Shown: positions 5,556-37,493, numbered from the stretch's first letter. The stretch is DNA of 39,477 bases from Planctomycetia bacterium (GCA_016200145.1 JACQFH010000737.1:1-39477), one strand, 5' to 3'. The notes: generated by a model not told the origin, from the sequence alone. Numbers and translations: made by a program.

Positions 5556-7863
5556 CCCACGGCACCTGAAACCAGCCGAGCTGTGTCGGCTGCTCAACTC
5601 AACACCGCTCAGGACGGTGATCGCCGAGCGCCAGCTCTACCGGCACAGGACACGCGCCGGGTTCCGGATCGGCGACGGCAGGCATCTCGACCTGTTCCGC
5701 TACGTCGCCTGGCTCATTCACGAGCATCGAACGCCCAAGGCGGTCGATCCGGTGGCTGGATATGAGACGCTAAAACAGCGCGCGCGTTCCCGGAACATTG
5801 CGCAATCCCTGGCGGGCCGAGACATCGGTGACCTCCCCGATCTGAAGAATCCTCCGCGGCGCGAGCGGGCTTCCACCGACTTCCGATTCTTCTGCGAAGC
5901 GTATTTTCCGCTGACGTTTCACCTGTCGTGGTCTGACGACCATCTCAAGGTGATCGCCAAGATCGAGCAGGCCGTCCTCCGCGGTGGCCTGTTCGCGATG
6001 GCCATGCCTCGGGGATCCGGAAAAACCACGCTGGCAGAATGCGCCTGTCTGTGGGCCATCCTGAACGGCCACCACAACTTCGTGGCGCTGATCGGTTCCG
6101 ACGAGGGGCATGCCACCGACATGCTCGAAAGCATCAAGATGGAGCTCGACGGTAACGGTTTTCTCCTTGACGATTACCCTGAGGTGGTCCATCCGATCGA
6201 GAGCCTGGACGGAATCGCCAACCGGTGCAACGGCCAGCTCTACCAGGAAGAGCGAACTCACATCGGCTGGACAGCCCGCGAGATTGTGCTCCCGACGCTG
6301 AAGCCGAAAGACTGGCTCAATGACGCTGTGCTTCGGAAGTTTGTGCGGGAGGACGGCAGCTCGCTGGCCAGTGGCGCGATCGTCAAGGTGGCCGGGATCA
6401 CAGGAAGAATCCGCGGCATGAAGTTCAAGCGGTCTGACGGCCAGACGGTCCGGCCGTCGCTGGTTGTGCTGGACGACCCGCAGACCGACGAGTCGGCCCG
6501 GTCGCTTTCGCAATGCGCCAACCGGGAAAGCGTTTTGGCGGGGGCCGTGCTGGGGCTGGCCGGACCAGGAAAAAAGATCTCGGGGATCATGCCGTGCACA
6601 GTCATCAAACCGGGCGACATGGCGGACAACATTCTCGACCGGGACCGGCACCCGGAATGGAATGGCGAACGCACAAAACTCGTTTACGCCTTTCCGGCGA
6701 ACGAGCAGCTCTGGGCCCAGTACGCCCAGCTGCGGGCCGAGGGAATGCGGAACGAAGACGGCGGCAAGGCAGCCACAGAGTTCTACCGTGAAAACAAAGT
6801 CGAAATGGACGCCGGCGCCCTTGTGGCCTGGCCGCAGCGGTTCAATTACGACGAGCTCAGTGCCATCCAGCATGCGATGAACCTGCGGCTCCAGGACGAG
6901 GCGGCGTTCTACGCCGAATACCAGAACGAGCCGCTCCCCGAAGAAGAGGCTGATGACGGCCTGATGACGGCCGACCAGGTGGCCGAGAAGACGAACGGCC
7001 TGGCGCGGGGCGATCTGCCGATCGGTTGTCAGCACCTGACGATGTTCGTCGACGTCCAGCAGAAACTGTTGTTCTTCATGGTCTGCGCCTGGCACGACGA
7101 TTTCACGGGATACGTCGTCGACTATGGCAGCTATCCCGACCAGAAGCGACCGTACTTCACGCTCCGCGAGGCGCGGCACACGCTGGCGACGGCCGCGGAG
7201 GGGACGGGCCTGGAAGGAGCTATCTATGCGGGGCTGACTCAATTAACTCGGTCGTTTCTGGAACGCGAATGGCACCGCGACGACGGCGCCGCCATGCGGA
7301 TAGAGCGCTGCCTCGTCGACGCCAACTGGGGTTCTTCAACCGACGTGGTGTATCAGTTCTGCCGGCAGAGCGTTCATTCGGCCATCGTGATGCCCAGCCA
7401 CGGCAGGTTCGTCGGCGCCTCGAGCATTCCGTTCTCGGAGTACAAGCGCAAGCAGGGGGACAAGGTCGGGCTCAACTGGCGCATTCCCAACGTCCAGGGA
7501 AAGCGAGCCATCCGCCACGTTGTGTTCGACGCCAACTTCTGGAAGTCGTTCATTCACGCCCGGCTGGCCGTGGCCATGGGAGACCATGGGTGCCTGTCGC
7601 TGTTCGGCACGCGGCCGGATCAGCACCGGCTCCTGGCCGACCATCTGACGTCGGAGTACCGGGTGAAGACCGAAGGGCGCGGCAGGAAAGTCGACGAGTG
7701 GAAGATCAGGCCGGAGCAGCCTGACAACCACTGGCTGGATTGCCTCGTGGGCTCGGCGGTGGCAGCGTCGATTCAGGGGGCGGCCCTGCTGGGCACCGGT
7801 GGATTTGTCACGCCGAAGCGCCCGCGCGTGCGACTTTCCGACCTGCAACGGAGTCGCCAATGA
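5545..7863 (+). CDS. Phage terminase large subunit
   Basis: The DNA-packaging motor is 772 residues, longer than most large terminases. It starts at GTG 5545, overlapping the upstream gene. Residues 1-62 form an extra N-terminal domain like that of the preceding small protein. The ATPase has Walker A PRGSGKTT at 155-162 and Walker B SLVVLDD ending at D310-D311. The C-terminal nuclease has FVDVQ (D503), and LVDANWGSSTDVV further on is typical of the RNase H-like fold that cuts concatemers. The protein loads DNA into proheads at the portal encoded two genes downstream. An NrdR-like ribbon gene begins within its stop (ATGA at 7860-7863). Confidence 0.95.
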   Translation: MAIDPRHLKPAELCRLLNSTPLRTVIAERQLYRHRTRAGFRIGDGRHLDLFRYVAWLIHEHRTPKAVDPVAGYETLKQRARSRNIAQSLAGRDIGDLPDLKNPPRRERASTDFRFFCEAYFPLTFHLSWSDDHLKVIAKIEQAVLRGGLFAMAMPRGSGKTTLAECACLWAILNGHHNFVALIGSDEGHATDMLESIKMELDGNGFLLDDYPEVVHPIESLDGIANRCNGQLYQEERTHIGWTAREIVLPTLKPKDWLNDAVLRKFVREDGSSLASGAIVKVAGITGRIRGMKFKRSDGQTVRPSLVVLDDPQTDESARSLSQCANRESVLAGAVLGLAGPGKKISGIMPCTVIKPGDMADNILDRDRHPEWNGERTKLVYAFPANEQLWAQYAQLRAEGMRNEDGGKAATEFYRENKVEMDAGALVAWPQRFNYDELSAIQHAMNLRLQDEAAFYAEYQNEPLPEEEADDGLMTADQVAEKTNGLARGDLPIGCQHLTMFVDVQQKLLFFMVCAWHDDFTGYVVDYGSYPDQKRPYFTLREARHTLATAAEGTGLEGAIYAGLTQLTRSFLEREWHRDDGAAMRIERCLVDANWGSSTDVVYQFCRQSVHSAIVMPSHGRFVGASSIPFSEYKRKQGDKVGLNWRIPNVQGKRAIRHVVFDANFWKSFIHARLAVAMGDHGCLSLFGTRPDQHRLLADHLTSEYRVKTEGRGRKVDEWKIRPEQPDNHWLDCLVGSAVAASIQGAALLGTGGFVTPKRPRVRLSDLQRSRQ

Positions 7864-8048
7864 CGGTCGCCGAGAGCACCAGGCTTTCCGAGCAGCGCGG
7901 CATTCAGTGCCGGCGCTGCGGCTGCAAACACTTTCACGTGCTTTACACGCGCCCCAAGCCCGGCGGCACGATCCAGCGGCGCCGCGAGTGCCGGCACTGC
8001 GGCACGCGCATCACGACCTGGGAGCGGATTGCCGAGGCCGAAAAATGA
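7860..8048 (+). CDS. Small NrdR-like zinc-ribbon protein
   Basis: This encodes 62 residues starting at the ATG that overlaps the terminase stop. Nearly the whole chain is one zinc ribbon: CRRCGCKHF near residues 16-24, then an arginine-rich strand and CRHCGTRITTWERI. The spacing and the R-R-R-E-C-x-x-C-G-x-R-x-x-T-x-E-R pattern closely resemble the N-terminal DNA-binding ribbon of the ribonucleotide-reductase repressor NrdR. The ATP-cone of NrdR is absent. It is probably a small DNA-binding protein acting with the terminase, either in packaging or transcription. The role is inferred from the fold and position only. Confidence 0.7.
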   Translation: MTVAESTRLSEQRGIQCRRCGCKHFHVLYTRPKPGGTIQRRRECRHCGTRITTWERIAEAEK

Positions 8049-8194
8049 CAGAGCCCCGTCACCGTGTTACATCGGGCTAGCAACGTAACGACCGGGTGAT
8101 GACCGCAACACGCGCGACTTTTTCAACGCGGGGTTCTACCGGTGTAACGATTTTCCGCAATCGCGCGCAAGCTACCAGAAATGTCCGTGATTTT

Positions 8195-8228
8195 TTGTCC
8201 CTTTAGGGAAGTAGGACTATAGAGGGAC
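8195..8228 (+). promoter_or_regulatory. Candidate promoter with overlapping TCCCT/AGGGA operator
   Basis: TTGTCC at 8195-8200 and TATAGA at 8218-8223 are separated by 17 bases, a good sigma70-type pair. TCCCT-TT-AGGGA at 8198-8209 forms an inverted repeat over the -35 side, and another AGGGAC follows at 8223-8228, overlapping the -10. The site lies in the 207-base gap before the connector and portal genes and points toward them. An internal regulated promoter for the head genes is plausible. Confidence 0.45.
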
Positions 8229-8255
8229 ACATATTTCTCACTTTGGAACGGACGA

Positions 8256-8453
8256 ATGTCCGACGACCTCGAAGAGACGATTCGTGAGAATGCCGCGGCC
8301 CCTGCGAAGGTGGCTGGCGACGCCGGAAGCGTGGAACAACACCCGCTCTCCGAACAGATCGAGGCCGACCGGTATCTGCAGTCGAAGAAGGTCGCCCGCA
8401 GCAAAACGCTGGGCGTGCGTCTGACCAAGATCGTTCCCCCTGGGGCGAACTAA
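8256..8453 (+). CDS. Small protein between terminase and portal (gpW-position)
   Basis: This encodes 65 residues, acidic at the N-terminus and basic at the C-terminus. It contains DAGSVEQHPLSEQIEADRYL and ends in RLTKIVPPGAN. There are no cysteines or membrane segment. Its place directly before the portal gene, with two bases between, is where lambda-type phages encode gpW, the head-completion protein. The size (about 68 residues in lambda gpW) also fits. The sequence itself is not clearly gpW, so call it a likely head-joining or head-completion protein. Confidence 0.55.
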   Translation: MSDDLEETIRENAAAPAKVAGDAGSVEQHPLSEQIEADRYLQSKKVARSKTLGVRLTKIVPPGAN

Positions 8454-8455
8454 CC

Positions 8456-9949
8456 GTGTTCGAGTGGCTCAAAGGTATTTTTGCTGCGCGCCGTGCGCCT
8501 GCGCTGACCGCGACCTGGCAACAGTCCGCCCGGTTCCTGCGGGCGCGTTACGACGCGGCGCTGACGACCGACGCGAATCGCCGTCACTGGGGTTTCGCGG
8601 ATGGTCTGTCGGTCAACTCGGCCAACAGCCCCGACGTGCGCCGCATTCTTCGCAATCGGGCGCGGTACGAAGTGGCCAACAACAGTTACGCGAAGGGGAT
8701 TGTGCTCACGCTCGCCAATGACGTTATCGGGACAGGCCCGCGCCTGCAGATGCTGACCGACGATGCCGAGGCCAATCGTCGCGTGGAGTCGGAGTTTGGC
8801 CGATGGGCGAAGGCCGTTCGCCTGGCTGAAAAGCTCCGCACGATGCGCATGGCACGAACGCAGGACGGCGAGGCCTTCGCCATTCTGATCAATAATCCGA
8901 GGCTCCCGACCCCGGTCCAGCTCGACCTGCGGCTGGTCGAGGCTGACCAGGTCACGTCGCTCAACATGCTGGTGAGTGATTGGAACGTAGTCGACGGGAT
9001 TCGGCATGATGAGCAGGGGAACCCGGTCGAATATTTCGTTCTCAAGCGACACCCGGGTGATGTGCGCGGCGGCTGGACGCTCGATTACGACGCGATCCCT
9101 GCCGAATCGATGATCCACCTGTACCGCGCCGACCGGCCAGGTCAGGCGCGGGGCATCCCCGAGATCACGCCGGCGCTGCCGCTGTTTGCCATGCTGCGGG
9201 ATTACTCGCTGGCAACGCTGGATACAGCCAAGGCGGCGGCCTACTACGCCGGCATCATCTACACCGATTCTCCGGCGAACGGTGAGTCCGATTCGGTGGA
9301 ACCGATGGATGCGGTTGAGCTCGATCGCAACATGCTGCTGACGATGCCGGGTGGCTGGAAGATGAGCCAGCTCCACGCCGAACAACCGACGACGGTTTAC
9401 TCGGACTTTAAGAAGGAAATCCTCAATGAGATCTCGCGGTGTTTAAATGTCCCGTACAACGTCGCGGCCGCGAATTCGTCGTCCTACAACTACGCCTCGG
9501 GCCGGATGGACCACCAGGTCTATTTCAAGGCGATCCGCATTGATCAGGCGTCGATCGCCGTCAACCAGCTCGACCGGATTCTCTCCGCCTGGCTCGACGA
9601 GGCGGTCCTGATCGAAGGCCTGCTCCCCCAGTCGCTACGGACACTCGATGCCGACTGCCCGCACCAGTGGTTTTGGGATGGCCAGGACCACGTCGATCCT
9701 CAGAAAGAGGCCGATGCTCAGGCCACCCGGCTAGCGAACAACACGACCACGCTCGCCGACGAATACGCCCGCCGCGGCCAGGACTGGGAAGTCCAGCTGC
9801 GGCAGCGGGCCAGCGAACTGGCGCTGATGCGCGAGCTGGGACTGGCCCCGGCCGACGCGGCGCCGCAAGGAACTCCTCCATCACGGGCCACAGACGACTC
9901 TCCGGAAAACTCCGATGCCGACCTCGAACCTGTCAGCACCGACGACTGA
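8456..9949 (+). CDS. Phage portal protein, lambda type
   Basis: This is 497 residues starting at GTG 8456. It fits the lambda-type portal family (Phage_portal_2): an Arg-rich N-terminal segment with FLRARYDAALTTDANRRHW, then ANNSYAKGIVLTLANDVIGT. Later come RLVEADQVTSL and PGQARGIPEITPALPLFAML, with a long helical stem and C-terminus ending in an acidic, Pro-rich tail. Portals form the dodecameric ring at one head vertex, where the terminase docks and DNA enters and leaves. It overlaps the protease-capsid gene by 35 bases in another frame, so both are probably translated from one message. Confidence 0.93.
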   Translation: MFEWLKGIFAARRAPALTATWQQSARFLRARYDAALTTDANRRHWGFADGLSVNSANSPDVRRILRNRARYEVANNSYAKGIVLTLANDVIGTGPRLQMLTDDAEANRRVESEFGRWAKAVRLAEKLRTMRMARTQDGEAFAILINNPRLPTPVQLDLRLVEADQVTSLNMLVSDWNVVDGIRHDEQGNPVEYFVLKRHPGDVRGGWTLDYDAIPAESMIHLYRADRPGQARGIPEITPALPLFAMLRDYSLATLDTAKAAAYYAGIIYTDSPANGESDSVEPMDAVELDRNMLLTMPGGWKMSQLHAEQPTTVYSDFKKEILNEISRCLNVPYNVAAANSSSYNYASGRMDHQVYFKAIRIDQASIAVNQLDRILSAWLDEAVLIEGLLPQSLRTLDADCPHQWFWDGQDHVDPQKEADAQATRLANNTTTLADEYARRGQDWEVQLRQRASELALMRELGLAPADAAPQGTPPSRATDDSPENSDADLEPVSTDD

Positions 9950-29954: not shown

Positions 29955-30290
29955 TCAACAACCCGGCGCCATCATTTTCGGCCGCCCAGCGCCGCCACTT
30001 TGAAACGCCGTCAACAGTTTACGAAACTTCAACTGGCCGGCCGCGGCGGCGGGTTTGGCGTTGGCGCCTTGCTCGAGGGCGAACAGCGTGTTGAACGCGG
30101 CGATGTACAGGACGCCGTTGGCGACAACCGGCGAATTGTACCCGGGAATGCCCATGTTCTGTTCCGAGACCTGTTCCTTCACTTTCGAGACCTTGAACAC
30201 GGTGATGTCGCCGTCCTGGTCGCCGATATAGACGCAATCCCCGACGATCAGCGGCGTCGACCACGACGCGGCGAGCATGACGTCAGTCAA
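29955..30290 (-). pseudogene. 3' fragment of a PQQ-like beta-propeller gene
   Basis: The translated fragment reads SWSTPLIVGDCVYIGDQDGD, then ITVFKVSKVKEQVSEQNMG and SPVVANGVLYIAAFNTLFAL. The end of the complete gene at 35805-37493 reads SWSTPLIVGEHVYIADQDGD, then ITVFKVSKVKEQVAEQNMG and TPVVANGVLYVATFNTLFAI. The similarity begins near 30290 and covers only about the last 75 residues of a 562-residue protein, with a different tail ending at 29955. The DNA differs at about one base in five, so the two are not a fresh duplicate. The upstream part of the frame (to 30428) is unrelated sequence. Confidence 0.85.
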
Positions 30291-30346
30291 CTCGACACTG
30301 GCGGTACGCTCATATGCGGCGGCACCACCTTCCGGAACGACGGCGC

Positions 30347-30862
30347 TCATCGCTGTCTGGAGGAATTCGAGCCGCACGCCAATGCTAGCGGCACAGAGGT
30401 CGAGCCAACAGCGGTTCGGTCCGCACAAAACATGCCGGCCAAGCTACTAAACAACAGGCCAATTGCGAGAGCGATCGATGATGCACCGACAGGACTACCT
30501 GCCTCTTCGCGTCCAAAACAACCGCAATCAATCGGCAAGCCTCTGGAAAGCGCCGTGATCTGAACTATCGAATATACGGTAAATAATAGAGCCGCGCAGC
30601 GAAACACGTTGCGTGGCACTTTACCACTTATCAGTCCAATGGCAATAGCGATGTGTACAAAAGGCAACACCGCAGCCGCCATCTCTGCCGCACCTCTCGG
30701 CAGTAAATCATAATCGTAAACTGACCGTAAAAACAAGTACGGATTCGCCAAATGCGTAAACGCAGTTCGGAGCAAAATACAGGCGATCGCAACCGCATCG
30801 AGCCAGCACAACCACAACCGAACACATCCACGAATTGATGAGCGCATTGATTGTCCAGTCAT
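30347..30862 (-). CDS. MauE/DoxX-type redox-associated membrane protein
   Basis: This encodes 171 residues. ATG 30862 was chosen because it overlaps the stop of the upstream gene (ATGA at 30862-30859). About four membrane helices are visible: WLDAVAIACILLRTAF, AAAVLPFVHIAIAIGLISG, ALLFTVYSIVQITALSRG and ASSIALAIGLLFSSLAGMF. The signature L-P-x-D-C-G-C-F-G follows the third helix, with C113 and C115. This is the motif of MauE/DoxX-like proteins, which handle disulfides or electrons at the membrane. MauE proper helps form disulfides in methylamine dehydrogenase; no such enzyme is here. The likely target is the exported proteins of the same operon (inference). Last gene of the operon. Confidence 0.8.
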   Translation of the reverse strand: MTGQSMRSSIRGCVRLWLCWLDAVAIACILLRTAFTHLANPYLFLRSVYDYDLLPRGAAEMAAAVLPFVHIAIAIGLISGKVPRNVFRCAALLFTVYSIVQITALSRGLPIDCGCFGREEAGSPVGASSIALAIGLLFSSLAGMFCADRTAVGSTSVPLALACGSNSSRQR

Positions 30863-31926
30863 GGAGCCGCTGCTTGAGCTGTACTCGGCGGCCTTGCCTG
30901 CCACCCGTTAAAGCCGGCGCGATAAATCGCGACTCGCTTGTAGCCGTGTTCTGCAAACTGCCGCGCTATTACATCCGCCCAGCTACATCGCTCCGACTGA
31001 CAATAGACTATTACGCGATTGTCAGGCGCGATTCGTCCCAGTGCCTCTCGCAACATATTATGTGAGACTGACACCGGAATATTTATCGCCCCAGGAACAT
31101 GCGACTTGTGATATGAGTCGGGATGACGGGCATCGATGATTACAACATCTTGTGCGCCCAGGACCGTCTCCATTTGCTCCGTCGTCACTACTTCCATCGC
31201 AGACAACCGATATCGCGCCGCAACTGTCGCAAGCTCATAACGATTGCCGACAAATCCATAACTCACGATTGAGTGCCACAACAACGCTGAGCTCAGCGAC
31301 ACCATAATCATCGCTGCAAGCGGACGGCGACGCAATTGTCGACAGCTCGGGACAAGAAGTGCGAACGCGGCAACAAGTGTCACCGCAAATGACAATTCAA
31401 GGTCCCACAACCCACTACGCCGATCATCCTTACGGCGGCTGATAACAATGCCTGTGCCATCCCATCGATTGAGAAGTTCGGCAGCCGACATTGAATAGGT
31501 CTGCCTCGGTGGGTCGTATACGCGGATGATATTTCCGTCAAAACCAAGAAACAGTATCCAGTGATTAAAACCGGGCCGTGATGCGGCACCAGATGCATGC
31601 AGCACTACAGGCGCGGCGCTGGCCCTCAGCTCAGCCACAGTCATCCTCGGTCGGAATGTAGCAGCCGCCCCATACTTCTCTGCAAGTGCCATAAGATCGT
31701 GTCCAGTACTTCCAATCTGCCCGGACACGAACGCACCATTGTTTATATCATCAAAGGAGGGGGCCGAACCGAGCGCTGTCAGCGCTGCGAACATTGAATA
31801 TAAGCCGCAGTACCGCTCGTCATATACTACGTGCTCGTCAGCAGTCGACCCATTCTCCGCGCTAGGGTTACTGGCAACGCCAACGCACCAAACCGCGAAT
31901 ATCAGTATGCGCGTCATTCGAGACAC
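30859..31926 (-). CDS. C39-like peptidase fused to a periplasmic rhodanese
   Basis: The frame is 355 residues from GTG 31926; ATG 31917 (M4) is an equally good start. After a short hydrophobic segment, residues 35-165 look like a papain/C39-type peptidase: C40 in YDERYCGLYSMFAAL, H122 in FNHWILFLGFD and D138 in RVYDPP. Two membrane helices follow (about 178-194 and 203-222). Residues 245-345 form a rhodanese domain: VVIIDARHPDSYHKSHVPGA and the active C309 in VIVYCQSERCSW, ending AGFNGW. With two helices between them, both catalytic domains lie on the same, probably outer, face of the membrane. This joins proteolysis with sulfur transfer. It directly follows the stop at 31927 and overlaps the MauE-like gene. 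Confidence 0.8.
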   Translation of the reverse strand: MSRMTRILIFAVWCVGVASNPSAENGSTADEHVVYDERYCGLYSMFAALTALGSAPSFDDINNGAFVSGQIGSTGHDLMALAEKYGAAATFRPRMTVAELRASAAPVVLHASGAASRPGFNHWILFLGFDGNIIRVYDPPRQTYSMSAAELLNRWDGTGIVISRRKDDRRSGLWDLELSFAVTLVAAFALLVPSCRQLRRRPLAAMIMVSLSSALLWHSIVSYGFVGNRYELATVAARYRLSAMEVVTTEQMETVLGAQDVVIIDARHPDSYHKSHVPGAINIPVSVSHNMLREALGRIAPDNRVIVYCQSERCSWADVIARQFAEHGYKRVAIYRAGFNGWQARPPSTAQAAAP

Positions 31927-33156
31927 CTAACCAGTCGTGCGTAACCGGTGCCATAGCAACAGTAGAACGACCGCGCCAGCGATCAGGTGCGCGAGAAGTA
32001 TTCGCCGGTACGAGGGCGTCGACGCTACAGCCACTGCACGGCCAAGTTGCAAAGCGCCATGATCGACTTGCTTAATGATTTTGCCGTCATTCGTGGTCCA
32101 GACAATGCCTGTCTGACTTTTATTTGCCATTGCGACTCGGCAATTGTCAGGCAATTGACGAATCGATTCTGTAACGTCGCGGTGCGTCACAGTACCGCTC
32201 CGAAACGTCTTAAACGTCAGCGTTATCGTCAATACAGATGCTTCGTTACCAGACAACCGTCGGTCCGTGCGTGTCACCGACTCCGGCAACGAGTGCCCAA
32301 GATCCGACGGTGCGCGATAGGCCACACGGTACGTTGACTCAAGTTGGTCAAGCTGAGCGTTAGGCTGTGCGAAGTCAGAGTCAACCAGGTACGCGCGATT
32401 TCTGATCGAATTGTGTGCAGCGACACCAGGCTTGTCTGTCAGTCCATCGGTCGCTACAACTTTGTGTTGCGGCAGCTTGACGATCTGGATTTCAGATACT
32501 AGCCATTGACGATCGCATTTGTCGCATGTAACACGTGTGATCCCGTATACTGCCGACTCAAACTCACAAGAGACGCGCGAATGAGATGCGTCTTCCCATT
32601 TAGATGACCGGAGGCGATATCCATACTTGCCAGATTCTGAGACCATTTCAGTAAATGTAATGTTACTGTGCTGTACCGAATTGGCAAAATCATCCAGAAG
32701 AATGCCATCCAGAGCGTTGCGGCGAGCTCCCAGTGATTCGTCAACAACGACAAGTTGTACGTCGTCACGCACCAGTGGCGCTGCGGGCAACGGCCATTCG
32801 ACGAGTAATCGTTCTGCAAAGTTGATCTCGATTCTCGGCTGCCCATCAAGCCATCGCTGTTCAAAGGCGCGGATCGCCGGCCCGGTAGTCTTGCCACGTC
32901 GAGTTACTTTTCGGCGGTCACGTGCCTGAATGAAAATGGCGTCTGAACAAATCAACGCCCGCACGTCCATTTCCACGGTATTCGTGCCACGTGGCTCACC
33001 GCGCCATTGCGTTTGAGTGCCGATAAAGTCACAATTCTTGAACGCAGTGCAAAAGTTGCTAACGACGCGCCCCAGATCGACAGCGTTAATTGGCGAATCG
33101 GCACAGATGCAGAATGACTGAATGACGCCATTTGTGAGCAATAGGCCGACTCGCAC
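31927..33156 (-). CDS. Membrane-anchored protein of unknown function
   Basis: This encodes 409 residues. GTG 33156 has AAAGGA seven bases upstream. The N-terminus (MRVGLLLTNGVIQSFCICA) is only weakly signal-like. The C-terminus is a clear tail anchor (ILLAHLIAGAVVLLLLWHRL) with a few basic residues after it. Most of the chain is mixed alpha/beta, with a CDKCDRQW element near the middle and several other cysteines. The large domain would face the periplasm if the N-terminus is exported. Cysteines here could be substrates for the MauE-like or rhodanese partner. No family recognised. Lower GC than the phage genes to its left. Confidence 0.65.
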   Translation of the reverse strand: MRVGLLLTNGVIQSFCICADSPINAVDLGRVVSNFCTAFKNCDFIGTQTQWRGEPRGTNTVEMDVRALICSDAIFIQARDRRKVTRRGKTTGPAIRAFEQRWLDGQPRIEINFAERLLVEWPLPAAPLVRDDVQLVVVDESLGARRNALDGILLDDFANSVQHSNITFTEMVSESGKYGYRLRSSKWEDASHSRVSCEFESAVYGITRVTCDKCDRQWLVSEIQIVKLPQHKVVATDGLTDKPGVAAHNSIRNRAYLVDSDFAQPNAQLDQLESTYRVAYRAPSDLGHSLPESVTRTDRRLSGNEASVLTITLTFKTFRSGTVTHRDVTESIRQLPDNCRVAMANKSQTGIVWTTNDGKIIKQVDHGALQLGRAVAVASTPSYRRILLAHLIAGAVVLLLLWHRLRTTG

Positions 33157-33241
33157 GCGACGATCCTTTCGATGCCGATATGCGCTTTCCGCTACAACGG
33201 TCTACGAGGAAGCCGGTCGTTACGGCAGCAACATACGAATA

Positions 33242-33270
33242 TCACGCGCGCGCACCTTGCCCGCGCGTGA
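33242..33270. other. GC-rich hairpin after the small exported gene
   Basis: TCACGCGCG and CGCGCGTGA form a perfect nine-base stem with an 11-base loop, just beyond the alternative stop at 33276 on the minus strand. No U-run follows on either strand. It may be a weak terminator or an RNA processing/stability site that separates the small gene from the membrane-anchored gene downstream. Confidence 0.45.
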
Positions 33271-33304
33271 CTGAATCACAGACCCGCCGGCAATGCGGCG
33301 GCCC

Positions 33305-33622
33305 TTAGTGCGCAATACAATTGTTGCTGAGCGCTCTGACGGTCACCGAAACGCAATTGAATTGGGTGCACCTCGTAACGTGCCCCACGTTTGGAGTTGC
33401 CGTCCAATTCGCCGTCGAGCCGACGATTGGTTTCGAGTACATGAACATGCAAGGTCCAAACATCAGCGTCAATGTCTGACAGTGTGACAGTACATTGCGG
33501 TACTTGCAAATGAGACCACCGTCAACGCTGGACGGGGAATCATGACTCGGCCAACATCGGAGGCCGACCGCGACAATTACACATGTGAATAATGCCTTGA
33601 CAACCTGTACAGTCTTGAACAT
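33305..33622 (-). CDS. Small exported protein, probably frameshifted
   Basis: ATG 33622 has AAGGAG seven bases upstream, so the start is well supported. The first 20 residues (VVKALFTCVIVAVGL) form a signal peptide or anchor, followed by SSVDGGLICKYR. The frame as written stops at 33305 after 105 residues. Beyond about residue 40, however, it becomes rich in Cys, Thr, Asn and Met, unlike the neighbours. The next frame from 33509 gives a more protein-like chain (VTLSDIDADVWTLHVHV, then NRRLDGELD) and ends at 33276. A one-base indel near 33490-33530 would join signal peptide and this chain into about 115 residues. Function unknown. It lies between the sulfotransferase and the other island genes. 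Confidence 0.5.
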   Translation of the reverse strand: MFKTVQVVKALFTCVIVAVGLRCWPSHDSPSSVDGGLICKYRNVLSHCQTLTLMFGPCMFMYSKPIVGSTANWTATPNVGHVTRCTQFNCVSVTVRALSNNCIAH

Positions 33623-33740
33623 AACGCACTCCTTTCGTACGAAAAACGGACGTGACAAAGAGCAACAACCAAGCCATTAAGGCGTGGCGTATCGCTGCGA
33701 GCAAGCGACGCGACGCACGCACGTGAACGGCGAGTCTTGT

Positions 33741-35543
33741 CTAGGTGTTGTGTTCGAGTGACAACAAGGGCCCGAGAAATTCGCGATAGCGTTCCCACCG
33801 CATCACTGAAGTTGAATAAATTGGTCGGCGAACTTGCCACCGGCTTGCCGTATCGACTTGTCGGACGGATTCGAAGAATCGCATACACGCGTCTTCAAAT
33901 GGAAGCGCAGAAAAAGTGGTTAGGCGCTGGATTACGCTGGCGGGTTCCGCAACGAGCGTCTCGTACGACAATTCGAACAAGGAATCTCTGTCAAGGACGG
34001 AATACCAGTGGCGCATCAGTTTGTCATAGAGCTTGTAAACCGTGGCCAATTGCCCAAGGTCAGTCGCAAATGGTACCATTTCGAAATGCTGCATGTATGC
34101 TGATAGGCATGTATCGATCGCGTTCCGTTTGCAATGGACAAAGCGCGCTTTCGGAAAGAGAATTCGGATTAGGCCCAAATCGAATGCATCATGTGGACAT
34201 TTTGTAACGACACGGGCAGTTGCGCCGGCAATTGCTCGGAGTCGATCGTAGATCTGAAGTGATACTCGTTGAACCACGGACGGTGTCAGTCCGGCGCAGC
34301 ATTTCGGATACGGCAAATTGGATTTCAGTTCGCGCGATAGTCGTTGCGTTAAATTGAAGAAGTCTTGCCGTTCACCTAGGCCTCGTACAGATGAATGAGC
34401 GCTCAGTATTTGCTCTGCCAACGTGGTCCCAGAGCGGGGCATCCCGACGATGCAAATTAGGAAGTCCGCGTGACAGCCATATTGAGAAAAATCCGAAATG
34501 AATTCGCGCGTGAATATGGAGACGCGTTCCTCCGCCGCGGATGTTTCATACGCCATCCGAAGGTGTCCGGGAGGAAATCGCGCTGATCGCAGATGATTCG
34601 CCAGTGCGAAATGGGCAAAGGCTTCGGCCGGATGTCGAGCGTCGTCATAGAGTTTGCCGAGCGCATAATGTAGGCCAGTCCTTTGCATCGGCGTGGCGGT
34701 CGGCATCTCCAGTGCGTTTCGCATTTGTTCGACGACCGGGTCGTTTAGACCGTGGACCGCGCGGGACTCAACAAGCCCATAGTATGCCAACCCCTCGCTG
34801 GGCTCGACCTCTAGAATGTGCCGATACAACGCTACGGCTTCATCTTTTCGCCCTTCGGACGCAATACAGTCGGCCATGCCCAACAGTGCACCGACCGTCA
34901 GTCGCTTTGTTGGTGCCAATTGCGATTCGACTTTGAACGAATTCGCAGCGGAATCCGTGTGTGCGCGCGCGCGGCAGAGTTTTCCATGGACTCGCCAGAC
35001 GACCGGCGATTTGGGATATAGCCGCTTCGCAAACTCGACATAGCGCACCGCTGCGTCAAACCGTTCGAGGTAGAGCAACAAGTCAGCGATCCGGCAACAC
35101 ACCGTGGACAAGTGCGGATGCGAGCGCTGCAGCTGAGTCGTCGTAATCGACTCGCAGAGTTCGACAGCTTCTGATTCCGACCAGTCGGCCAACGCTCTTG
35201 CTAGCCAAAAGCGAGCGATTAGCTCATTCGGGAAGAGGGCAACAAGTCCGCGCAAGATCGAAATTGCACTCGTCGTCCAATTTCGTCGGAGGCACTTCAT
35301 GGCCAACCGCAGACCAAGCCACGTCATTCGGCGAGCCAAGCGCGTCGCGAATCCCCGTCGGCGCCTTCCTCCCGTCAAGCGCACGACGTCCATTGCAATG
35401 GCTGAATCACACTGCACAACAAGATCGCGTGCGGTGGAATTGCTAACCGAGAGAGTCTCCGGACTTACAGAGGCAACATTGCTGCTGCTATCGGCCAGAT
35501 TTCGCACATCGATTTCGTCGATCGTGCAATGCACGGTGGCCAT
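33741..35543 (-). CDS. TPR-containing sulfotransferase
   Basis: The protein is 600 residues from ATG 35543, which follows GAGGAG at seven bases; the frame is open further up but the extension lacks a site. Residues about 90-330 are TPR-like helical repeats (NELIARFWLARALADWSESE, KDEAVALYRHILEVEPSEGL, LHYALGKLYDDARHPAEAF). A sulfotransferase domain follows. The PAPS 5'-phosphosulfate loop is FLICIVGMPRSGTTLAEQIL (361-380), then HSSVRGLGERQDFF. The 3'-phosphate part is KARFVHCKRNAIDTCLSAY. It transfers sulfate from PAPS to a hydroxyl or amine; the TPR part suggests a protein or peptide acceptor, as in some tyrosine sulfotransferases. First gene of the low-GC island operon. No PAPS synthesis genes are seen. 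Confidence 0.9.
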   Translation of the reverse strand: MATVHCTIDEIDVRNLADSSSNVASVSPETLSVSNSTARDLVVQCDSAIAMDVVRLTGGRRRRGFATRLARRMTWLGLRLAMKCLRRNWTTSAISILRGLVALFPNELIARFWLARALADWSESEAVELCESITTTQLQRSHPHLSTVCCRIADLLLYLERFDAAVRYVEFAKRLYPKSPVVWRVHGKLCRARAHTDSAANSFKVESQLAPTKRLTVGALLGMADCIASEGRKDEAVALYRHILEVEPSEGLAYYGLVESRAVHGLNDPVVEQMRNALEMPTATPMQRTGLHYALGKLYDDARHPAEAFAHFALANHLRSARFPPGHLRMAYETSAAEERVSIFTREFISDFSQYGCHADFLICIVGMPRSGTTLAEQILSAHSSVRGLGERQDFFNLTQRLSRELKSNLPYPKCCAGLTPSVVQRVSLQIYDRLRAIAGATARVVTKCPHDAFDLGLIRILFPKARFVHCKRNAIDTCLSAYMQHFEMVPFATDLGQLATVYKLYDKLMRHWYSVLDRDSLFELSYETLVAEPASVIQRLTTFSALPFEDACMRFFESVRQVDTASRWQVRRPIYSTSVMRWERYREFLGPLLSLEHNT

Positions 35544-35804: not shown

Positions 35805-37493
35805 TTATTGACCTGTTGGTCGCGCACTGCGATCGGCTTTCGTTGAAGCGCCCTCAGTGATTGCGAATAAAGTATTGAAAGTGGCGACGTAAAGCACCCC
35901 ATTCGCGACAACCGGCGTATTCTCGACCGGGATTCCCATGTTCTGCTCGGCAACTTGCTCTTTGACTTTCGAGACCTTGAAAACGGTGATATCGCCGTCC
36001 TGGTCGGCGATGTACACGTGTTCGCCGACGATCAGCGGAGTCGACCACGACATGGCCAGCATATCGTGCGTCCAGTGCACCTTGCCCGTCTTGGCGTCGA
36101 GGCAATGGAACAGTCCGCTCTCATCGGAAATGAAGAGCAGGCCGTTCTTGATTGCCGCGCTGCTCACTGTGCGGTGCATCGTCTCTTCGAACTTCCCGGG
36201 ATTGGTGCCGGCATAGTGCCAGACCATCGCCGAATTCTCGTTGTCGCGCTCGAAGTCTCCGGCCTTCTCGTCGCAGGCCTGGATCCGCTTGTAGGGAATC
36301 GGGGTCTTGGGGTCTTTCTTGTTGAACACCAGCGTGGGGCTGACGTCGCCGCGCTTCTTGGGGTCAATGCACCATAAGTGGCCTTTGCCTTCGCCGTGTT
36401 CGGGATCCTCGCCAACGCCGATATAAACGTAACCGTCGTAAATGACCGGGGTCCCTATGATTGGATTGCGCGTCGCCCTATCCAGCGCGTATATGGAAGT
36501 TTTGGGATTGCAGTCGAACTTCCAGAGCAGTTTCGCCTTGCCCCCGTCGCCCTTTGCTTCGAAGCTGTACAGCCAGCCGTCTCCGCCGGCGAACAGCACC
36601 TGCTCGACGCCCCCCAGCACGCCGCACGCGGGCGACGACCATTGCCCGTGCATAATGTTGCTGCCGGGCGATTTGTCGGTCCACAGGACCTCGCCGGTAT
36701 TCTTGTTCATCGCCAGAAAGCTGGGAGCGTTGGGCTGGGCGATCACTTTGTGGGCTTCATCGACGCCGTTGGACGTGCTGACGAACAGCACGTCGCCCAG
36801 GGCCGTCACCGAGCAACTGCACGCGTTGTGAGGCGACGCCCCCAGCTTGCCCATCATGTCGACTTTCCAGATGATGTCGGCTTCGTCCTTGTTGTTGTTC
36901 GGCTCAGACTTGAACGGGCCGTCGTTCTCCCCATCGAGGAAGCCTTCGACGTCGAGACAGACGATTTCATCGCGATTGGTGACGTACCACAGCCGGTCCT
37001 TCTCGACGTACGCGCTCGAGCAGACGCCCAGCATCTCCCAATCATTCACGCGTCCCGCGGGCAATTTCTCGTTTGAGTGCTGCCACAGGAACTTGCCGGT
37101 CGCTTCGTCGAAACACAACAGGCAGCCCAGATCGACCCTGGCGGGGTAGCGCTTGACGTAACCGTTGGCGTTGTTCGTGCCGATGAAGATTTTCCCATTA
37201 GCGACGACAGGACTTGAATAGGTCTGCGATCCCAAACGTGCCGACCATTTGATGTTTTTGCCCGACGAGACGTCCCATTCGGTGGGAATGCTCTTATTGG
37301 CCGGGCTGACGTTGTTGCGGTATCCGCTGAGGCCCATCTGCGGACTGTCGCCGGGCTTCACGTTCATCTTGGCGAGCACCTTGGCCGCCTCGGCGATGGG
37401 GTCGTAGGAGTCGTCGGCCGCCGGGGCGATGGCAGCACAGGCGATCGCCAGAGAAGCCACGAGGCCCGGGGAGATGCGAACGATCGATTTCAT
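35805..37493 (-). CDS. Exported PQQ-like beta-propeller protein
   Basis: The protein is 562 residues from ATG 37493. A signal peptide (VASLAIACAAIAPAADD) is followed by a propeller of repeated blades. Each blade carries VVANGKIFIGTNN- or YVYIGVGEDPEHG-like strands and W/D turns, for example KIKWSARLGSQTYSSPVVA without the first residues, GEVLWTDKSP and KVHWTHDML. The fold is that of PQQ-binding dehydrogenase-like proteins and BamB. Whether PQQ is bound cannot be judged. It acts outside the cytoplasm. Planctomycetes carry many such proteins. A 3' fragment of a close relative lies at 29955-30290. The upstream neighbour in the same direction is another propeller protein. Confidence 0.85.
   Translation of the reverse strand: MKSIVRISPGLVASLAIACAAIAPAADDSYDPIAEAAKVLAKMNVKPGDSPQMGLSGYRNNVSPANKSIPTEWDVSSGKNIKWSARLGSQTYSSPVVANGKIFIGTNNANGYVKRYPARVDLGCLLCFDEATGKFLWQHSNEKLPAGRVNDWEMLGVCSSAYVEKDRLWYVTNRDEIVCLDVEGFLDGENDGPFKSEPNNNKDEADIIWKVDMMGKLGASPHNACSCSVTALGDVLFVSTSNGVDEAHKVIAQPNAPSFLAMNKNTGEVLWTDKSPGSNIMHGQWSSPACGVLGGVEQVLFAGGDGWLYSFEAKGDGGKAKLLWKFDCNPKTSIYALDRATRNPIIGTPVIYDGYVYIGVGEDPEHGEGKGHLWCIDPKKRGDVSPTLVFNKKDPKTPIPYKRIQACDEKAGDFERDNENSAMVWHYAGTNPGKFEETMHRTVSSAAIKNGLLFISDESGLFHCLDAKTGKVHWTHDMLAMSWSTPLIVGEHVYIADQDGDITVFKVSKVKEQVAEQNMGIPVENTPVVANGVLYVATFNTLFAITEGASTKADRSARPTGQ

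Follow-up and report, generated by a model that had tools for sequence, protein, structure and literature searches.

What is the function of the tightly spaced genes at positions 30347-35543 of a planctomycete contig (Planctomycetia bacterium, GCA_016200145.1 JACQFH010000737.1:1-39477)? An earlier note, made from this 39,477-nucleotide stretch alone (hereafter the window), had joined a sulfotransferase, a peptidase-rhodanese fusion, a MauE-like protein and a small exported protein in one candidate system. Comparing related loci, we arrive at a different unit of four genes, encoding a precursor peptide, a LolA-like protein, a fusion of a C39 peptidase with a rhodanese, and a MauE-type membrane protein. 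We propose that they form an operon dedicated to maturing a secreted, disulfide-stabilized peptide, and we put the probability of this reading at roughly 0.78. The unit is previously undescribed: we found no account of it in the literature on C39 peptidases with MauE, rhodanese or planctomycetes. The five genes of the window are all on the minus strand and are transcribed in the order TPR-sulfotransferase, precursor, LolA-like, C39-rhodanese, MauE; the features are as follows.

33741-35543, minus strand: TPR-sulfotransferase, 600 residues, without a signal peptide (cytoplasmic); it shares the island and the strand with the other genes but is not conserved as a system component
33305-33622, minus strand: precursor peptide, 105 residues, with a Sec-type signal, a spacer, SVDGG and a predicted mature part with six cysteines
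33308-33514, minus strand: predicted mature peptide, 69 residues with six cysteines, LICKYRNVLSHC...NNCIAH; the cut after Gly-Gly is placed by the leader consensus
33241-33271, minus strand: strong GC hairpin between the precursor and LolA-like genes, with a 10-bp stem and no U-run
31927-33156, minus strand: LolA/LolB-fold protein, 409 residues, with an N-terminal signal and a C-terminal transmembrane anchor; fold by prediction
30859-31926, minus strand: fusion of C39 peptidase, two transmembrane segments and rhodanese, identified by Pfam domains, conserved residues and topology
30347-30904, minus strand: MauE-type membrane protein with a CGC motif, likely start 30862 (PF07291, E 3e-18)

Successive gaps of 118, 148 and 0 bp are followed by an overlap of the C39-rhodanese and MauE genes, and the GC content, 0.60-0.65 in the flanks, falls to 0.53-0.56 within the unit, so the earlier description of co-directional, closely packed genes of distinct composition was accurate. 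The four proteins it named are real; it left out the LolA-like gene, however, and missed the double-glycine site of the precursor. The best start of the sulfotransferase is the ATG at 35543, preceded by AGGAGAGG and in agreement with the end position given in the earlier note, and that of the precursor is the ATG at 33622, preceded by AAAGGAG, both of them good ribosome-binding sequences.

After removing near-duplicates and truncated copies, we compared 35 non-redundant C39-rhodanese loci, all of them from Planctomycetota. About one in ten of the related planctomycete genomes searched carries the gene: in the family it was found in 15 of 170 and in the class in 32 of 398, and further planctomycete assemblies have it as well. 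Precursor, LolA-like gene, C39-rhodanese and MauE recur together without the sulfotransferase in dozens of divergent loci, some with fusions between them, and constitute the core. MauE is directly downstream of the C39-rhodanese, or fused to it, in 33 of the 35 loci; in L064 the distance is 3.1 kb, again downstream, and in L071 no MauE was found. The LolA-like gene, as a rule, is directly upstream of the C39-rhodanese and is fused to it in L116 and L071, and in L035 and L036 it stands downstream of MauE with two or three precursor copies.

Because the four genes recur together in so many loci, their grouping goes beyond chance. An accidental assembly of unrelated genes in a genomic island would fit the setting of the unit, which has an intact PQQ-propeller gene (35805-37493) on one side and, on the other, the displaced 3′ fragment (29955-30330) of a similar gene, and it would fit the sulfotransferase, which does not recur. 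Set against the joint recurrence of four of the five genes and the fusions between them, such an accident is extremely improbable; we reject it for the core, and it holds for the sulfotransferase only. The earlier note had taken recurrence of the C39-rhodanese and MauE genes without the sulfotransferase or the small protein as the sign of a chance grouping. They do recur without the former, but almost never without the latter.

Of the 31 loci with enough sequence, 29 carry the small Sec-exported precursor; the other four of the 35 are cut by contig ends. To find such genes, we used a detector requiring a hydrophobic N-terminus, Gly-Gly or Gly-Ala, a cysteine within 10 residues after it and at least five cysteines. 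Within the operon zone it picked out 24 matches, compared to 3 in the rest of the 543 kb examined, which is a 47-fold excess. Of the three outside the zone, one (L064) is a true precursor adjoining its protease gene. Five further precursors (L037, L054, L110, L114 and L115) were recognized by eye. All that the precursors share is the Gly-Gly or Gly-Ala site just before the first cysteine, a usual V, I, L or F at position -4 and about six conserved cysteines. The site is present in 30 of 30 precursors (the detector required it for most), the hydrophobic residue at -4 in 21 of 30, and the number of cysteines after the site is even in 26 of 30 (p 3e-5). No family exceeded its cut-off when two precursors were scanned against Pfam and about seven against NCBIfam.

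In the window precursor, the hydrophobic stretch spans about residues 7-21 and SVDGG occupies residues 32-36. Its GG and six-cysteine framework is common to 16 other precursors, and in the alignment of these 17 one glycine of the pair (G35) and five cysteines are invariant, with the sixth cysteine nearly so. The double-glycine site and the residue at -4 are typical of leaders that C39 peptidases remove, and the precursor would accordingly be cleaved after GG. Valine or isoleucine at -4 fits a pocket in C39 peptidases, and LahT and ComA leaders need a hydrophobic residue at this position (PMC6363468, PMC10885120). Tandem precursors in L035 and L036 are informative about the product: between pairs with the closest leaders, the leaders are 86-94% identical and the mature parts 41-59%. 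As judged from these sequences, a conserved leader with a variable mature part looks like a constant address attached to a product that varies. The precursor may resemble the NVEALA peptides, for which a literature search gave no paper.

Over whole genomes, a profile of the precursor matches almost exclusively at C39-rhodanese loci. In the family, 12 of the 15 genomes with a C39-rhodanese contain a match, compared to 0 of the 155 without one (Fisher p 6e-16). The window precursor matches with E 1.2e-12 and is the sole match in its genome.

The protease itself has a C39 domain at about residues 36-166 (31429-31821) and a rhodanese domain at residues 249-344 (30895-31182). Pfam assigns the first to Peptidase_C39 (E 2.6e-5), and this part is related to the peptidases of ComA and PCAT1; the second matches Rhodanese with E 3.2e-19. 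Among the 35 proteins, the catalytic triad is conserved as C40 and H122 in all and D138 in 31, and the rhodanese loop CQSxxC has an invariant active-site C309 and an invariant C314 (both 35/35). All 34 testable proteins have a signal sequence, and hydropathy gives two transmembrane segments with a mostly basic loop between them in 35 of 35. Because of the signal sequence, the two segments and the basic loop, we place both the C39 and the rhodanese domains outside the cytoplasm. This supports the part of the earlier proposal that invoked outer-face proteolysis together with thiol chemistry, both acting on the small exported protein, as do its presence in 29 of 31 loci and its genome-wide coincidence with the C39-rhodanese. 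Matches from Verrucomicrobia and Omnitrophota (L077-L081) covered the rhodanese part alone; L077, L078, L079 and L081 are single rhodaneses of the CQSxxC type.

The remaining core proteins are MauE, which scores 66.8 bits against a family cut-off of 27 and carries its CGC motif in 33 of 35 loci, and the LolA-like protein. The latter has no Pfam or NCBIfam match. A structure model of the window protein (predicted local distance difference test, pLDDT, 78.8) resembles LolB (Z 12.3 over 223 residues, root-mean-square deviation 4.5) and LolA (Z 11.4 over 179 residues, 3.7), which head the list of matches and point to an open-barrel fold. Throughout the family, the protein ends in one C-terminal transmembrane segment and a basic tail. 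With this predicted fold, it is a candidate membrane-tethered peptide-binding or chaperone protein.

The cysteines of the rhodanese loop (CxxxxC) and of the MauE CGC motif are the most conserved in the system, which could also suit a module of redox or sulfur metabolism in which rhodanese and MauE transfer sulfur in the periplasm and the small protein is merely a redox carrier. Rhodaneses do occur in the periplasm, PspE being one example (PMC2593051). We consider this very unlikely, as it leaves unexplained the conserved C39 active site, the Gly-Gly before the first cysteine and the conserved leader with its variable mature part.

Under the maturation reading, Sec would export the precursor of about 105 residues by way of its N-terminal hydrophobic signal, as its sequence suggests. 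In the periplasm, the membrane-tethered LolA-fold protein may then hold the peptide or pass it on, a role suggested by fold and co-occurrence. The periplasm-facing C39 domain would remove the leader after Gly-Gly or Gly-Ala, just before the first cysteine; we infer this cut because the catalytic residues and the site are conserved and co-occurrence is strict. MauE and the periplasmic rhodanese would drive or proofread the formation of about three disulfides; a relay of persulfides or disulfides may be involved, and this step is the least certain. Finally, locus-specific accessories (DUF1559 pseudopilins, PMT-type or GT2 glycosyltransferases and, here, perhaps the sulfotransferase) could serve to present the product or to modify it. 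We computed gene order, recurrence, residue conservation, co-occurrence, topology from hydropathy and the predicted fold, and from them we infer cleavage, disulfides and role. We favor an exported effector or signal over a housekeeping protein, because the mature part changes fast and the distribution is patchy.

Several observations weigh against this reading. The C39 domain scores 24.5 bits, barely above the Pfam cut-off of 22. The Gln six residues before the C39 cysteine is not conserved among the 35 proteins, position 34 not being Gln; in a C39 cocrystal structure, this residue lies 4.3 Å from the oxyanion, and its oxyanion role has been doubted (PMC6363468). No recognizable precursor was found in L033, the closest relative of the window, or in L122, both of which have enough sequence. 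The precursor profile was trained partly on the genomes it was scored against, and most of the 12 positive genomes contributed to it; G506, G508 and G510 did not. The precursor was found in these three although they lay outside the training set, in G510 on another contig because the contig with its C39-rhodanese begins at that gene. The structure model of the precursor is poor (pLDDT 53) and uninformative for disulfide connectivity, and the rhodanese could act in sulfur transfer instead of disulfide exchange. At L033:11928-12683, a sigma-factor-like open reading frame occupies the place of the precursor in other loci.

The sulfotransferase, which the earlier note had included in the system, matches Pfam Sulfotransfer_3 (E 2.7e-35) plus TPR and has relatives among the protein-tyrosine sulfotransferases (8w5z, E 9.4e-8). 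The C39-rhodanese locus of the window is the only one that has a sulfotransferase beside it. Of 32 genomes searched, 31 of them with a C39-rhodanese, 21 have no homologue at 1e-20, and in the others it is far from the locus. The two tyrosines of the predicted mature peptide of the window (CKYRN and FMYSK) are both outside an acidic context. We therefore reject the sulfotransferase as a core component, and the sulfation half of the earlier proposal is not supported.

These data also bear on a pathway like that of RaxX, RaxST and RaxAB, in which the TPR-sulfotransferase would sulfate the precursor in the cytoplasm before export and the C39 peptidase would then remove the leader. As in raxX, raxST and raxB, a sulfotransferase, a small double-glycine precursor and a C39 peptidase lie in one cluster (PMC6637879), here on one strand of one low-GC island, and the kinship to tyrosine sulfotransferases is in keeping with such a role. 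The restriction of the sulfotransferase to this locus, the context of the tyrosines and the lack of an ABC exporter make it quite unlikely. Rax has a peptidase-ABC exporter and removes the leader during export, whereas the peptide of the window is Cys-rich and the sulfotransferase beside it is not conserved. A variant of the maturation reading is a modular extracytoplasmic pathway with an exchangeable tailoring slot, filled by glycosyltransferases elsewhere and by the TPR-sulfotransferase here, which would yield a sulfated, disulfide-bonded peptide. We regard this variant as doubtful.

Accessory genes raise another alternative, namely that the loci serve the biogenesis of an envelope or surface structure and that the Cys-rich small proteins act there as glycosylated structural units linked to DUF1559 pseudopilins, instead of free effectors or signals. 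A DUF1559 pseudopilin lies in or beside the operon in 15 of the 35 loci, just downstream or fused to MauE, five of them being such fusions, and a PMT-type membrane glycosyltransferase is directly downstream in about 10. However, both families are abundant in planctomycetes and most loci lack them. PMT_2 matches number 4-37 per genome, so single cases prove little. Additionally, fast-evolving precursors and a patchy distribution (15 of 170 genomes) are unlike core envelope parts, and we consider the envelope alternative unlikely. The MauE-DUF1559 fusions are in a single frame in L111, L119, L121, L122 and L123, with a prepilin N-methylation motif in L111. At L037:8127-9377, MauE is fused to a GT2 glycosyltransferase, and a glycosyltransferase of PMT type comes next. 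In L071, a 629-residue TPR membrane protein (6903-8792), by eye like TMTC-type glycosyltransferases, directly follows the LolA-C39-rhodanese fusion. The Schlesneria-type loci (L049:6578-8200 and L052:9623-11203) have a conserved exported protein of 526-540 residues downstream of MauE; DUF1570 and predicted Zn-protease families are all that it matches, and weakly.

How does the four-gene unit relate to known systems? Like the PCAT/AMS proteins ComA, LahT and PCAT1, it has a C39 domain with conserved Cys, His and Asp and a substrate site of Gly-Gly or Gly-Ala with a hydrophobic residue at -4 (PMC6363468, PMC10885120). Unlike them, it has no ABC transporter in the window operon, its C39 domain is fused to two transmembrane segments and a rhodanese and lacks the conserved Gln before the cysteine, its peptidase, preceded by a signal sequence, is predicted to lie outside the cytoplasm, and its precursor has a Sec-type signal. 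In the mau cluster, MauE also neighbors a small exported Cys-rich protein, the methylamine dehydrogenase beta subunit, whose disulfides MauE, with MauD acting in the same maturation, is thought to help form (cited in PMC7794033). The window operon, in contrast, has no mauD or other mau genes, structural ones included; the rhodanese replaces the thioredoxin-like partner, and the C39 protease and LolA-like protein are added. LolA/LolB and RseB/MucB share the predicted fold of the 31927-33156 protein, but here it has a C-terminal membrane anchor, no detectable sequence relation to them and no lol genes beside it. The nearest published hint is the set of mauE-bearing candidate families of ribosomally synthesized and post-translationally modified peptides that decRiPPter found in Streptomyces, in which mauE lies beside a predicted precursor with at least eight cysteines (PMC7794033). 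These belong to a different phylum, and the passages there on which our comparison is based do not mention a C39-rhodanese fusion or LolA-like gene.

If correct, the maturation reading would turn the double-glycine peptide pathway inside out, with Sec exporting the precursor and a C39 protease waiting outside, physically joined to sulfur or thiol chemistry. It would give a function to an unannotated gene set in a phylum about whose secreted peptides hardly anything is known, and it would supply a new hypervariable six-cysteine peptide family without a Pfam or NCBIfam model (as scanned). It would also assign to an extracytoplasmic rhodanese a role that can be tested, which is rare.

Finally, we asked how the unit came to lie where it does. 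A genome of the same genus (G433, L126:2831-7120) has the same PQQ gene pair in the same order, with neither the operon nor the fragment, and it has no C39-rhodanese. The C39-rhodanese of the window is closest, at 44%, to one from another family (G377), compared to at most 35% for members of its own family. From the sequences, this arrangement and relationship fit acquisition as one piece, sulfotransferase included. The PQQ fragment resembles the intact gene yet clearly differs from it, so we reject an insertion that exactly duplicated it; the fragment would be a paralogous or displaced 3′ end. Phage cargo was likewise rejected, a scan of viral contigs having given no relative. Within the unit, the hairpin between the precursor and LolA-like genes has a z of -2.95 over a 71-nucleotide stretch and is a possible processing or attenuation element.

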